DNA of 55,908 nt from Pseudomonadota bacterium (lineage in GTDB: Bacteria > Pseudomonadota > Gammaproteobacteria > Steroidobacterales > SZUA-146), in contig JBCCHD010000024.1 of NCBI GenBank assembly GCA_039028935.1, forward strand, positions 1 through 55,908. Reading direction: 5' to 3'. The notes below the pieces were generated by a model. It was given only the letters and a program-made list of their open reading frames with translations, had not been told where the DNA came from and made no database searches. Shown here piece after piece: positions 37,947 through 43,899 of this stretch. Positions within the stretch are counted from its first letter, which is position 1; every line of letters begins with the position of its first letter. A program made the translations under genes and the position numbers.

Positions 37947-38102
37947 GGACATCTAACTGCATGAAAAAAATAGACTTTCCAGATGGATTTGGATTCTGTC
38001 CAAGTTTTTGCATAATGCGTGTCTCAGTGTTTACCCCGAGTTTGCGGTGTTGATTCGCATGGTGACCAGGCACACTCTCGCTACGTATCGAATGGGTGGC
38101 CG

Positions 38103-41100
38103 GTGAGTTATTCAGAAGCCGAGATCTTTAAACTAGGGCCTTTTCGTGTTGAACCTCGCACAGGTCGCATTCTCTTGGACGGTTCTGTTCGTCAGGTGCA
38201 ACCCAAAGTCATGCAACTGCTCCTTTGCCTGGTCGATAACCACGGGCAGGTGGTCAGCAGCGAATATTTACTGGAACACGTTTGGCCTGACGTGTTTGTT
38301 GACGGCGGCGCGCTAAGGCGAGCGATCTATTTTCTGCGCAAGGCACTCTCTACCGACAACAACGACGCAGTGATTGAAACGCTCTCCAAGCGTGGTTACC
38401 GCCTTAACCTTGCGCCAAGCAAAGCCGACGCGTCGCCAGTCGAGGTCTCGGAGACAAGTTTGACGACTACCGCGGCTGTCACGAGTGCGTACCGCGGACT
38501 AAACGTCTTTGATATTGATCATGCTCAGCAGTTTTTTGGTCGTGCAGCACTGACGACATTGGCCTGTGACGCCTTGGCTCGCCAGCTCGATGACGGCCGA
38601 GCGTTCGTGCTGCTACTCGGTGCGAGCGGTAGTGGAAAGTCCTCGCTAGCGCGAGCGGGTGTCCTTCCTGCACTCGTTGAAGAGCGACGACGCCAGGGTC
38701 TTAATCCGGACGTATTTGTGTTGGAGGCGGGTAAGGGACTCAAAGACCCGGTGTTTCAGATCGCCGAAAGCCTGTTGCGAACCTTTGGGGTAACGCGACC
38801 GTTGAATCCGGATGTGATGGCGTTCATCGAGAGACTGTCAGAGGACGCCGAAGAGACGATTGCACAGCTCATTGAGCAAGATCAGGAAGAGGACTCACCC
38901 GTTTGTCGCGCCATTTGGCTCTTGGATCAGTTCGAGCAGTTTCTCACGAGTGCGACGTTGGCGGACGAGCAGCGTACGATGATCTTTTCGGTTATCTATT
39001 CATTGGCGCGTAGCGGCGCGGTGCATATAGTCGCCACCATGCGCAATGAATTTTATCCGCAGCTTATTCATCACGATGCATTGCGCTACCTTAAAGGGCG
39101 ACACGGTATCGTTGACGTGACTCAGCCTGGGGCGGCTGAAATCGGTGACATCGTGCGCAAGCCCGCTGTGTTGGCGGGGCTCGCGTTTGAACAACGCGAA
39201 GACAAACAGCGGCTGGATGTGCGGCTAATCGACGAGGCGACCACGCTCTCCAATAGTCTGCCACTGCTGCAGTTTGCGCTGCGCGAATTGGAACTAAGTT
39301 GCGGCGAATCAAAGCTGCTGAGCTTCGCCCAGTACGACAAACTCGGCAGTTTGAAAGGCTGTCTTTCGCAGCACGCAGAACGCGTGTATCAGTCTCTATC
39401 AGACGAGCAGCAGCGCTGCCTTGCACAGGTGCTGAGTCAGTTAGTGACCGCCGATCCGCGCAATGCGAGCCGTCTGCTCAAGCGCACTGTGCCGCTGTCC
39501 GAGTTTCGTTCCGCACCGGCTCGCGCGTTGATTGAGCGATTTGTGAATGCGCGACTCATGATCAGTTTTCTCGATGCCTATACCAACGAGCCAAGCATCG
39601 AGATCATTCACGAGTCGGTTATGGAGCATTGGCAGCGCGCGCGTGATTGGGCGGAGCGCAGCTACGCCGACCTTCGCTTTCGCAGTTGGCTCACTGAGCT
39701 CAGTGACAAATGGCGCCAGGACGATCATGCTGAAGCGTATCTGCTGCGTGATGGCAAGTTACTCGTCGACGCGCAAAAACTGCTCGGTCGAGAGGGCTTT
39801 TTTGATGAGAACCAACAGCGCTTCGTTCGTGCGTCACTAAAACGAGCCGATCGGGCAAGCCATATCCGACGTGGGGTCATCGCCTCGCTTGCGGCGCTGC
39901 TTGGGGTGTCGTTGATTCTATGGAATCAGGCGATTCGTAATGCGGACAAGGCCGAGCGAGCGCTTGGCCGGGCGAATATCACCAGCAGTTTTATGGCGTC
40001 TATTTTTTCAGATGCGGAGCCTGGTACCCAAGGCGAAGTGCTCACGGCGCTTGACGTGGTCACGTCGGCTCGTGATCGACTCCGCGACGAACCGATAGAC
40101 GATCCGTTAGCGCAGGCCGATTCTCTTCGCACGCTGGGTGAGTTGTTCCTAAAGCTCAATGACTATGAGCAAGCTGGCGCGATGTTTGAGCAGGCGCAGG
40201 CCGTGTATCAACAAGCCGACGAAGACGCACCGCTTTTGGAAGCGCAAATCGCACTTGAGTTGGCGGGTCTTCAGCGTGAGATCGGCGAAATAGAACGTGC
40301 CCGCGAGTATGCGAATCAGGCGTTGGCGGCGGCAGAGCGGGCCGACGATCGGTTTTTGGTCGCGCGCATTCAAAATATGTTGGGTCTGGTCAAACAAGGC
40401 GAGGACGATTTTGAACGGGCCGGCCGCTGGTTCACACAAGCGCTCGATACATTGCTGCCGGTGTATGAGCAGAGCGAGCGAAACGCGCGCCTGTTGTCAC
40501 GTATCCATAACAACATTGGATTGAACTACCTGCTTGCTCGCGACTATGACTCGGCGGTTGCGCCGTTTGAGCATTCGCTGTCGCTACTTGCCGAACGGGG
40601 GCGACAAAATTCCGCTGACTACAACATCACGATGAACAATCTCGGCATGCTGCGACGACGTCAGGGAGAGCATGAAGCGTCCGCGAAGATTTTTTCTGAA
40701 GCGATTGAAACCAGGTTGCGCTATCACCCACTCAGCCATCCCGACGTGATCGCGCTGCACACCAATTTAGCCTCCGCTTATATGAGTCTGGGTGATTATG
40801 CTCAAGTGCTCAACACCGTGCAGCGCGCGTTGAGCGCGGACCTTACTGGCAACGCGTACGATACAACGGCCATACCGCAGCTTCGCGTGCGGCGCGTATC
40901 GGCGCAGCAGCTCGGTGGGCTACCGTCGTCCGGTCAAGATGTTCGCGAGGCCCGCGAAGCGATCGAAGTGCTGGAGCGTGAACTTCGCCCGGGCTCTTCG
41001 ACGGTGCTTGAGTCAAAAATGGCCGTCAATGCCGCCGTTTGGCAGCTGGGCGGTTTACTCGATGACGCGTTAGATAAGCAATGCCAAGAAACCCGCGATC

Positions 41101-41207
41101 TTGTGGCAGAACAGCGCGAGCGGCAATCGCGTAATCCCAGAGTGGTCGAACTCGAGCAAACCATTGCGGGTCAATTAATTAGGTGTGCGGTCGCTGGAGG
41201 CGGCTGA
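38103..41207 (+). CDS. Winged-helix / STAND ATPase / TPR signalling protein
   Basis: 1034 residues from a GTG at 38103 (an in-frame GTG at 38019 would add 28). An OmpR-type winged helix (about 8-98, FKLGPFRVEPRTGRILLDG to SKRGYRLNL) comes first. A novel-STAND NTPase domain follows, with Walker A LLGASGSGKSS (about 170-180) and Walker B AIWLLDQFEQFL. Next come a membrane segment (about 588-608, GVIASLAALLGVSLILWNQ) and then many TPR repeats (about 690-960) on the far side. The plan resembles CadC/ToxR-like one-component regulators with an added signalling ATPase. The target genes and ligand are unknown. It is divergent from the secreted repeat protein gene, a possible target. Confidence 0.82.
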   Translation: MSYSEAEIFKLGPFRVEPRTGRILLDGSVRQVQPKVMQLLLCLVDNHGQVVSSEYLLEHVWPDVFVDGGALRRAIYFLRKALSTDNNDAVIETLSKRGYRLNLAPSKADASPVEVSETSLTTTAAVTSAYRGLNVFDIDHAQQFFGRAALTTLACDALARQLDDGRAFVLLLGASGSGKSSLARAGVLPALVEERRRQGLNPDVFVLEAGKGLKDPVFQIAESLLRTFGVTRPLNPDVMAFIERLSEDAEETIAQLIEQDQEEDSPVCRAIWLLDQFEQFLTSATLADEQRTMIFSVIYSLARSGAVHIVATMRNEFYPQLIHHDALRYLKGRHGIVDVTQPGAAEIGDIVRKPAVLAGLAFEQREDKQRLDVRLIDEATTLSNSLPLLQFALRELELSCGESKLLSFAQYDKLGSLKGCLSQHAERVYQSLSDEQQRCLAQVLSQLVTADPRNASRLLKRTVPLSEFRSAPARALIERFVNARLMISFLDAYTNEPSIEIIHESVMEHWQRARDWAERSYADLRFRSWLTELSDKWRQDDHAEAYLLRDGKLLVDAQKLLGREGFFDENQQRFVRASLKRADRASHIRRGVIASLAALLGVSLILWNQAIRNADKAERALGRANITSSFMASIFSDAEPGTQGEVLTALDVVTSARDRLRDEPIDDPLAQADSLRTLGELFLKLNDYEQAGAMFEQAQAVYQQADEDAPLLEAQIALELAGLQREIGEIERAREYANQALAAAERADDRFLVARIQNMLGLVKQGEDDFERAGRWFTQALDTLLPVYEQSERNARLLSRIHNNIGLNYLLARDYDSAVAPFEHSLSLLAERGRQNSADYNITMNNLGMLRRRQGEHEASAKIFSEAIETRLRYHPLSHPDVIALHTNLASAYMSLGDYAQVLNTVQRALSADLTGNAYDTTAIPQLRVRRVSAQQLGGLPSSGQDVREAREAIEVLERELRPGSSTVLESKMAVNAAVWQLGGLLDDALDKQCQETRDLVAEQRERQSRNPRVVELEQTIAGQLIRCAVAGGG

Positions 41208-41367: not shown

Positions 41368-41514
41368 ATAAAAAACCCCAGCACGGTGGCTGGGGTTCAA
41401 AGCCGTCCTGGCAATAGGCGATTGAGTAACCAAATGAAACGGTATCTTCCGTGTCGCGTCCTGCGGCTATGAAATCCTTTTTCCCGTCTCGTGCAGCACC
41501 CTTTCGGGCAACTG
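41368..41514 (-). ncRNA. Candidate CsrB/RsmY-family regulatory RNA
   Basis: Minus-strand transcript of about 147 nt, ending in a strong terminator that no minus-strand gene explains. Reading 5'-3', it opens with a hairpin (GCAG...CTGC around CCCGAAAGGG). It then has five GGA motifs, at plus positions 41482-41484, 41475-41477, 41459-41461, 41448-41450 and 41406-41408. Two of these lie in CAGGACG, close to the CsrB repeat CAGGAUG. GCCAGGACGGC puts GGA in a hairpin loop, and ACGGAAGATACCGT forms another. A weak CATACT -10 lies at 41523-41528. A GacA-like palindrome is centred about 66 bp upstream of the predicted start. Such RNAs sequester CsrA/RsmA. The 5' end is approximate. Confidence 0.62.
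41370..41397 (-). terminator. Rho-independent terminator of the candidate regulatory RNA
   Basis: On the minus strand AACCCCAGC (41397-41389) pairs with GCTGGGGTT (41382-41374) around a 6-base loop, followed by a run of six T. The plus-strand side has no T-run (TTCAAAG), so it acts on minus-strand transcription. Confidence 0.85.
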
Positions 41515-41571
41515 CCGATACAGTATGCGGAAAACCCGCAAAAGATGAATCCAGCGCTTTCCGACAATGCG

Positions 41572-41589
41572 TGTAGGATTTTTCCTACA
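41572..41589 (-). promoter_or_regulatory. GacA/LuxR-type response regulator box
   Basis: The 18-bp palindrome TGTAGG-N6-CCTACA has the same length and spacing as the GacA upstream activating sequence TGTAAG-N6-CTTACA that drives rsmY, rsmZ and csrB genes. It lies about 66 bp before the predicted start of the minus-strand RNA. It could alternatively act towards dtd. Confidence 0.6.
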
Positions 41590-41774: not shown

Positions 41775-42218
41775 ATGATTGCATTAATTCAACGCGTGAC
41801 GCAGGCGTCTGTGACGGTGAATGGCGCGACAGTCGGGCAGATTGACGCGGGCCTTCTGGCACTGATCGGCGTTGAGAAGGGCGACAGTCAGGACGAAGCG
41901 ACGCGATTACTCAGGCGGTTATGTGGGTATCGGATTTTTGCCGATGATGACGGCAAAATGAACCGAAGCGTCGCCGATATTGGCGGTGAACTGCTCTTGG
42001 TGCCGCAATTCACTCTGGCGGCCAGCACTCACAAAGGCATGCGGCCGAGTTTCTCTTCCGCCGCCCGCCCTGAAGACGGGGAGCGGCTGTTCGCTCATTT
42101 GGTTGAGGAGGCTCGACACACTGGACTGAAGGTGGATACAGGCCAATTTGGCGCGGATATGAAGGTCGACCTATCGAATGATGGACCCGTGACCTTTTGG
42201 CTGCAGGTCGCACCGTGA
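41775..42218 (+). CDS. dtd: D-aminoacyl-tRNA deacylase
   Basis: 147 residues (E. coli 145). It starts IALIQRVTQASVTV and has the active-site motifs: LLLVPQFTLAAST (SQxT type, here PQFTL) and the C-terminal NDGPVTFWL (NxGPVT type). It cleaves D-amino acids from mischarged tRNA and also removes glycine from tRNA-Ala. I chose the ATG at 41775 by family alignment; a longer frame from 41658 adds 39 unconserved residues over the regulatory region. No strong ribosome-binding site is obvious. tatABC follows on the same strand. Confidence 0.94.
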   Translation: MIALIQRVTQASVTVNGATVGQIDAGLLALIGVEKGDSQDEATRLLRRLCGYRIFADDDGKMNRSVADIGGELLLVPQFTLAASTHKGMRPSFSSAARPEDGERLFAHLVEEARHTGLKVDTGQFGADMKVDLSNDGPVTFWLQVAP

Positions 42219-42325: not shown

Positions 42326-42553
42326 ATGTTCAGCGGAATCAGCCCCGCCAGCTTGCTGCTTATATTGCTTATCGTGGTGCTCGTGTTTGGCACGCGCAAA
42401 CTCAAGGGCATGGGTTCTGACGTGGGTGGAGCAATCAAGGGCTTCCGAAAAGCCATGAAAGAGGACGATCCGCCTGAAGCCGCCCAAATTGCGCAGAAAG
42501 AATCCTCGACCGATCCCATCAAGCAGTCGTCCGATACGTCGACCAACGGTTAG
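42326..42553 (+). CDS. tatA: Sec-independent translocase subunit TatA
   Basis: 75 residues. One N-terminal membrane helix (about 7-22, [17 protein letters not shown]) is followed by the [26 protein letters not shown] amphipathic helix typical of TatA, and a short polar tail. TatA multimers form the transport path for folded twin-arginine proteins. An AAAG-rich leader precedes the ATG. tatB begins 18 bp after the stop. Confidence 0.95.
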
Positions 42554-42571
42554 GTCCGTTTTTTTCGCTCC

Positions 42572-43132
42572 ATGTTTTTCGATGTCGGCTTTTCCGAGCT
42601 GTTTTTGCTCGCGGTGGTGGGCCTGCTCATACTCGGTCCTGAACGACTTCCGGCGGTCGTTAAAACGCTCGGCGGATGGGTTCGACGCGGTCGGCAGATG
42701 GCTGCCGAGTTTCAGCGTGAGCTCGAAAAAGAGGTCGATCTCAAAGAGCTCAAACAGCTGAAACAAGATGTTGAACAGCCACTCCGTGAAGCGGCGAGCA
42801 CGCTGGATGAAGGACACTCTATTCTTGAGCAAACACGCGACGACGTCGCCAAGCTCGGTGCGCCGATTGCCGCCTCGTCATCGATCGATGATGAGGGTGT
42901 AACGACCGGATCAGTGCCGGAACACGACACGATTGAGCCGCATGCGCCCATGCCTTCCACGGAAGACTCCGACATGGACACGGACGAAGAGGGCATCGCA
43001 TCGATGCGACCGGATTCCACCGATATACCCGCCCATGACTCGATGGCGACACAACGCGTAGAGGCGCAAGGTGCGGCATCATCTCGTTCTCGGGAATCAG
43101 CAAAAACAGACGTCAAGTCGGACGAATTGTGA
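42572..43132 (+). CDS. tatB: Sec-independent translocase subunit TatB
   Basis: 186 residues. The start FFDVGFSELFLLAVVGLLILGPERLP is the TatB helix and FGPERLP-type hinge (here LGPERLP). An amphipathic helix with RGRQMAAEFQRELEKEVDLKEL-type sequence follows, then a long acidic, Ser-rich disordered tail. TatB joins TatC in the receptor complex that recognises RR signal peptides. Its stop overlaps the tatC GTG start by four bases. Confidence 0.95.
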   Translation: MFFDVGFSELFLLAVVGLLILGPERLPAVVKTLGGWVRRGRQMAAEFQRELEKEVDLKELKQLKQDVEQPLREAASTLDEGHSILEQTRDDVAKLGAPIAASSSIDDEGVTTGSVPEHDTIEPHAPMPSTEDSDMDTDEEGIASMRPDSTDIPAHDSMATQRVEAQGAASSRSRESAKTDVKSDEL

Positions 43133-43899
43133 ACACCCCAAAAGACCTGGAAGACGAGCCGCAGACGCTGTTGTTCCACTTGATGGAACTACGCGCGATG
43201 CTGATGCGCAGCGTCATCGTGGTCGTTGTGCTGTTTGCCATGCTTATGCCGTTTGGTAAGCGATTGTTCGAGCTTGCGTCGGCGCCGCTGGCCGAAAAAC
43301 TTCCGACCAATGCGACGATGATTGCGACCAATGTGATTTCGCCGTTCTTGACGCCATTCAAACTGTCGTTTTTTACGGCGCTGTTTTTGGCCATGCCGTA
43401 TATTCTTTATCAGGTGTGGGGCTTTGTTGCGCCGGGCCTGTATAAAAACGAAAAAAAGGCGGCCATCCCGCTCTTGATCAGCAGTATTGTTCTGTTCTAT
43501 CTAGGTATTCTCTTTGTGTATTTTGTGCTGTTTCCGGTCGTATTCAATTTCGTTGTGGCCGTGACGCCTGGCACAGCCGTTATGATGACCGATATCAGTC
43601 AGTATCTGAATTTCATGCTCGCGCTATTTTTGGTGTTCGGCCTGGCGTTCGAAATACCCGTGGCCACAGTGCTCGTCGTCTGGATCGGTCTTACGACGCC
43701 GCAGGCGCTTGCCAAAAAAAGACCCTACATTCTGATTGGTGCGTTTACGCTGGGTATGTTTTTGACGCCGCCCGACATCATTTCCCAGGTGATGCTCGCG
43801 ATCCCGATGTACGCGTTGTATGAGGCGGGACTGTTTATGTCGCGACACATCGGTCGACGAGCGGAAGCGCCCGACGCCGCGGGCGCTTCAATGAAATGA
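43129..43899 (+). CDS. tatC: Sec-independent translocase subunit TatC
   Basis: 256 residues from a GTG start, six membrane helices. Family marks are the N-terminal LLFHLMELRAMLMRS (normally HLxELRxR), the conserved Pro in the LTPFKLSFFTALFLAMPYILYQVWGFVAPGLY region, and a late FLTPPDIISQVMLAIPMYALYE. TatC is the signal-peptide receptor. It is the last gene of tatABC, and the convergent M16 protease gene ends 60 bp away. Confidence 0.95.
   Translation: MNTPKDLEDEPQTLLFHLMELRAMLMRSVIVVVVLFAMLMPFGKRLFELASAPLAEKLPTNATMIATNVISPFLTPFKLSFFTALFLAMPYILYQVWGFVAPGLYKNEKKAAIPLLISSIVLFYLGILFVYFVLFPVVFNFVVAVTPGTAVMMTDISQYLNFMLALFLVFGLAFEIPVATVLVVWIGLTTPQALAKKRPYILIGAFTLGMFLTPPDIISQVMLAIPMYALYEAGLFMSRHIGRRAEAPDAAGASMK

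Follow-up and report, generated by a model that had tools for sequence, protein, structure and literature searches.

The RsmY and RsmZ RNAs of Pseudomonas are short, box-driven and carry GGA motifs in their loops. For UvrY/GacA, the published consensus site is TGTAAGN6CTTACA, a palindrome of 18 nt (PMC3171408, PMC4682653), with the sequence TGTAGGAGA reported adjoining the site at csrB (PMC4682653, PMC3171408), and rsmZ adjoins fdxA in Pseudomonas (PMC9788540). Conservation among CsrA-sequestering RNAs ("sponges") extends to little besides GGA, which makes them difficult to detect.

Here, we analyze a predicted non-coding RNA of ~147 nt on the minus strand (41368..41514) of the window (the whole 55,908-nt stretch of gammaproteobacterial DNA under study), which an earlier note had described as an RNA of the CsrB/RsmY/RsmZ type and which we delimit by sequence features and conservation. 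The RNA opens with a predicted hairpin at its 5' end (41514-41494) that is not conserved in congeners, and closes with an intrinsic terminator (41368..41398) consisting of a hairpin and T run (41398-41373); the earlier note had claimed both structures, as well as the lack of a minus-strand gene upstream, and indeed no minus-strand ORF of at least 60 aa is found between 41165 and 41918. The divergent neighbor is dtd (D-Tyr-tRNA deacylase; 41778..42218, plus strand; Pfam PF02580), and downstream of dtd are ORFs (42326-43899) that by eye resemble tatA, tatB and tatC. On the other side, a protein of 1062 aa containing Trans_reg_C, nSTAND1 and TPR domains (38019-41207) ends ~160 bp from the RNA's end.

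Between the RNA and dtd lies a GacA/UvrY-type box that the earlier note had overlooked, a perfect 18-nt palindrome of the form TGTAGG-N6-CCTACA (TGTAGGAAAAATCCTACA, 41589-41572) that differs from the published consensus by one base per half, and that is exact in one congener (L008) and has one mismatch in the other (L009). This is the only box match in the window, compared with 0.09 expected when one mismatch is allowed, and the sole zero-mismatch match in the whole 4.1-Mb genome; three boxes elsewhere in the genome with one mismatch (L004-L006) were rejected as having only 0-4 GGA per 200 nt. A -10 element, CATACT (41522..41527, minus strand; CATAAT in both congeners), follows 44 nt after the box. 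Among 30 related promoters—a set that includes three from a single genus and some further close relatives—11 have a hexamer resembling (C/T)ATAAT (5 or 6 of 6 positions) at precisely this distance of 44 nt from the box, against an average of 0.14 per offset for the remaining 103. The box and the -10 element at this spacing therefore predict a start near 41514, with the box centered ~66 nt upstream of it, in agreement with the 5' end chosen in the earlier note. With a GacA/UvrY palindrome upstream, and with both the promoter and the terminator of a free-standing unit, the locus presents on sequence alone what is looked for in Gac-controlled sRNAs that sequester CsrA or RsmA.

The five GGA motifs claimed for the RNA are found on the minus strand, with first bases at 41484, 41477, 41461, 41450 and 41408. 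They comprise ACGGGA (GGA at 41482..41484), AAAGGAUUU (41475..41477), a possible loop of CGC-AGGAC-GCG (41455..41465), ACACGGAAG (41448..41450), and a possible loop of GCC-AGGAC-GGC (41402..41412), the third and fifth belonging to two exact CAGGACG copies (41463-41457 and 41410-41404) that had likewise been reported. As to the statement that a GGA is displayed in a hairpin loop, each CAGGACG copy allows a 3-bp hairpin with AGGAC looped, but such hairpins are absent when the RNA of the window is folded to its predicted minimum energy, the two CAGGACG regions pairing with each other instead. Local hairpins do form in the predicted fold of congener L009. At least five GGA are found in 1.0% of minus-strand and 4.0% of plus-strand stretches of 147 nt. 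Dinucleotide shuffling of the RNA itself reaches this number in 23% of cases, which makes the count weak evidence, and GGA counting as a sole criterion was dropped for its lack of significance against shuffles. Four possible GGA-in-loop hairpins can be drawn (overlapping registers counted), a number reached by 0.6% of shuffles, and the stability of the 147-nt fold is not unusual (z -0.41). What places the locus above chance level is the box, the -10 element and conservation.

Besides the locus itself, both congeners were found, at 80% identity, by a DNA similarity search of 59 genomes, own genome included; a further match from this search (L010) covered the terminator only and was discarded. 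Three-way identity between the window and the two congeners (20-nt bins) reaches 45-60% in the two bins with the box (41600-41561) and 55-85% across 41480-41361; every other bin, those in the 5' quarter of the RNA among them, lies at 0-40%. The box, the GGA sites, the terminator and the 3' three-quarters of the RNA are kept, and congener changes preserve the sites, with the first CAGGACG copy becoming CAGGAUG and ACACGGAAG becoming ACAUGGAUG. Upstream of dtd, where the earlier note would have counted a lack of conserved GGA motifs and terminator in close relatives as refuting it, both are conserved in the two congeners.

The same arrangement occurs beside dtd in other families. Among 80 loci fetched for dtd alone, many of them from betaproteobacterial lineages, three MAG loci (L047, L054 and L057) each combine an exact box with a terminated, GGA-rich RNA that points away from dtd; in L047, an alpha/beta hydrolase gene separates box and dtd. 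A class-wide scan for TGTAGGAN4TCCTACA yielded 42 places in 37 of 369 genomes. The richer side carries five or more GGA per 200 nt in 32/42, a figure inflated by the choice of that side, and the poorer side does so in 6/42; dtd lies inside the ~3-kb locus at 12 of the 42. Distances between box and dtd in 19 divergent cases are either 27-206 bp or 981-1131 bp. Within the window's own order, a slightly looser box was found in 8 of 246 genomes, some of which look like chance. Several boxes in order and class have few GGA alongside, and we set aside L096, L098, L099, L101 and several class places as apparent chance matches. A congener carries L101 (G001 C225:2814) as a second perfect box, flanked by no more than one GGA per 200 nt, which could be either chance or a GacA target other than a Csr RNA.

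We also searched the genome for the partners of such an RNA. Two csrA genes score above the Pfam cut-off, and a gacA-like gene encodes a 214-aa REC-LuxR regulator whose best NCBIfam match is UvrY/SirA/GacA (231 bits, under the cut-off of 280). This gene is one gene away from uvrC, with a uracil-DNA-glycosylase-like gene in between and a pgsA-like ORF beyond (named by eye). The sCache_4 domain of BarA/GacS, sought as a GacS marker, was not found in the genome; the best sensor candidate (L202) is an 877-aa HisKA-HATPase-REC-Hpt protein with BarA as its best match (404 bits vs. a cut-off of 890); for a 1027-aa protein, the first match is TorS and the second BarA.

Collectively, the box variant, the -10 element at fixed spacing, the GGA sites, the terminator, the conservation in congeners, the recurrence beside dtd and the csrA and gacA-like genes support the type assigned in the earlier note, and we give a probability of roughly 0.88 to the reading that this is a small RNA of ~147 nt, switched on by a GacA/UvrY-type regulator, that sequesters CsrA. 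A phosphorylated regulator of this type would bind 41572-41589 and turn on transcription of the RNA, which would be ended by the intrinsic terminator and would present five GGA sites, two of them of CAGGA(C/U)G type that could be displayed in hairpin loops. The RNA would then bind CsrA dimers, and mRNAs under CsrA repression—the presumed regulon—would be freed. The earlier note had gone further and called the locus the switch of this organism, which we infer it may be.

As a test independent of box and gene neighborhood, we used a covariance model of the 3' end, built from 17 loci, that contains the conserved element described below, the last GGA hairpin and the terminator, with neither box nor dtd. 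Training sequences were hand-picked from loci selected by box or dtd, chiefly on account of the element, so that hits among such loci are not independent, and the presence of the element in new hits is by construction. Across the class, 54 of 369 genomes match at E 0.01 or better, in 61 places, of which 30 loci were examined (8 in training, 22 outside). A box lies at most 400 nt upstream in 13 of the 22 non-training loci (six with zero mismatches, four with one and three with two), with no box in the other nine; downstream, no box has one mismatch or fewer, and three loci have one with two, which at L158 and perhaps L159 belongs to a second RNA in tandem. Divergent dtd is found in 8 of these 22, some of which share genera with training loci (G588 with G381; G287 and G427 with G533).

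Within the order, 26 of 246 genomes match the model, in 35 places, 18 of which were examined: each of the four strong new loci has a box with no more than one mismatch, and none of the 14 weaker loci has a box within two mismatches. In families f1, f14 and f16, all 11 sampled genomes match at 1e-7 or better, seven of them via training loci. Nine of the 33 genomes taken via dtd loci also match, the three strong ones being training MAGs, and no box within two mismatches was found at seven weak loci in these genomes. The last two helices show covariation, with changes on both sides, in 9 of 12 pairs (0/500 shuffles as high), in an alignment that was fitted to the structure being scored. A second match in the window's own genome (C2:85636, E 0.005) was rejected, with one GGA in 205 nt and a best box of four mismatches.

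Some matches have features of their own. At L158 (G287), the RNA is followed directly downstream (~1590-1825) by another terminated stretch that bears GGA and has a degenerate box, which probably makes these tandem RNAs, and L159 (G427) perhaps has a second tandem RNA as well, judged by box and GGA counts only. Two strong matches within one genome (G028 C60:58799 and C175:2426) are likely sibling RNAs. A weak match in L220 (G153) is divergent from dtd in the usual position with no recognizable box, and is perhaps a decayed or differently controlled relative.

What is new here is that many related RNAs share an element other than GGA before the last GGA hairpin, raising the question of why a sponge would retain a conserved segment outside its CsrA sites. 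In the window's RNA this is CUCAAUCGCCU (41416..41426, minus strand), and its general form, CUCAAUC(A/G)CCU, is free of GGA and stands directly before the hairpin in many box-selected RNAs. Of 33 box-selected RNAs, 16 carry the pattern ATC(A/G)CC or a near form, picked after viewing the sequences, within their last 110 nt (10/26 from the class, 4/4 from the order and 2/3 from dtd loci), compared with 2.2 expected from shuffles.

By analogy with CsrB, a plausible if tentative reading is that the element is a nuclease entry site setting the lifetime of the RNA. Decay of E. coli CsrB is reported to begin at an RNase E site, an unstructured stretch that immediately precedes the terminator and is guarded by adjacent CsrA sites (PMC5027483), and the present element is similarly near the 3' end and adjoins the last GGA hairpin. 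Unlike in CsrB, however, that hairpin lies between element and terminator, and the ends of CsrB and CsrC are without the element.

A bolder reading, which we regard as doubtful, is that the RNA has a dual function, sequestering CsrA while the element pairs with an mRNA or binds another protein. Besides the excess of its pattern over shuffles, the element shows no complementarity to the body of its own RNA (longest match averaging 3.5 vs. 4.3 in shuffles, 22 RNAs) and is predicted, with assumed 5' ends, to be somewhat more unpaired than the body (0.52 vs. 0.43, with the element ahead in 17 of the 26 RNAs; P 0.01). On the other hand, the pattern was chosen post hoc and 17 of the 33 RNAs are without it, predicted accessibility in the window's own RNA is no higher for the element than for the rest (0.47 vs. 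0.50), and a search for base-pairing targets in the window and 12 loci of the same genome gave one 10-nt antisense match, in a kinase locus, which we take as chance. For the widespread, uncatalogued family of CsrA sponges that these RNAs may form, often beside dtd in gammaproteobacteria, it is rather unlikely that the element acts in trans as a second output; if it did, one Gac signal would both release CsrA and trigger a second regulatory act through the same RNA.

Several observations count against the CsrA-sponge reading itself. The number of GGA is not significant alone, and five are few beside the 22 of CsrB; the box is off consensus by one base per half, and no Rfam family matches; the fold is ordinary, with a minimum-energy form that lacks the two GGA hairpins; the gacA-like and BarA-like scores are below cut-offs, with no sCache_4 found; and the box is rare in the window's own order and missing from 9 of the 22 non-training class loci. 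The scarcity of GGA, and the position of the palindrome upstream of dtd as well as of the RNA, would also suit a base-pairing sRNA or a dtd operator unrelated to CsrA, with GGA incidental. We consider this very improbable, as box and GGA-rich RNA occur together also in loci without dtd (L128, L129 and L209), and in class loci with dtd the side richer in GGA points away from that gene in 11 of 11 cases plus one tie (L121). That the locus is a mere terminator with chance motifs, as the shuffled GGA counts and the ordinary fold would allow, is the least credible reading in view of the box, the -10 element and conservation.

Set against known Csr/Rsm RNAs, the CsrA sponge proposed here is not captured by existing Rfam families. 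In the covariance search suggested in the earlier note, no Rfam family, including CsrB, CsrC, RsmY and PrrB_RsmZ, matches the window or 25 related loci at gathering score; of these four models, RF00166 alone was run on whole genomes. A permissive Rfam search gave nine matches, eight of them over the terminator stretch and none to a CsrA-binding family, all of which we rejected. Conversely, the 3' model matches neither CsrB and CsrC of E. coli nor L190, the sole RsmZ above the Rfam cut-off in the class sample (5.9 bits at best), and the short element pattern has a single loose match in CsrB, far from the 3' end of that RNA. No dtd-linked Csr/Rsm RNA family or element is reported among the literature matches listed, in which subscription journals are thinly covered. 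The combination of box, divergence from dtd and 3' module offers a handle for annotating CsrA sponges in lineages where Rfam found none among those tested.

Shewanella CsrB1/CsrB2, Marinomonas CsrB/CsrC and Pseudoalteromonas Pf1 are likewise known by a GacA/UvrY box and many GGA (PMC3171408, PMC8523701, PMC9927453), with no mention of a dtd neighbor in the portions of these descriptions available to us, and the Shewanella (~420 nt) and Marinomonas RNAs are longer than the window's RNA. E. coli CsrB and CsrC differ in having 22 and 14 GGA versus five here, boxes that begin 191 and 168 nt before the start versus ~75 here, and other neighbor genes. They resemble the present locus in their GacA/UvrY-type palindrome upstream, CAGGA(U/A/C)G sites and intrinsic terminator, and they are reported to sequester CsrA. 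Pseudomonas RsmY and RsmZ (RF00195, RF00166) resemble it in being short and box-driven (PMC2375449). With high probability, the window's RNA would work like CsrB and RsmZ.
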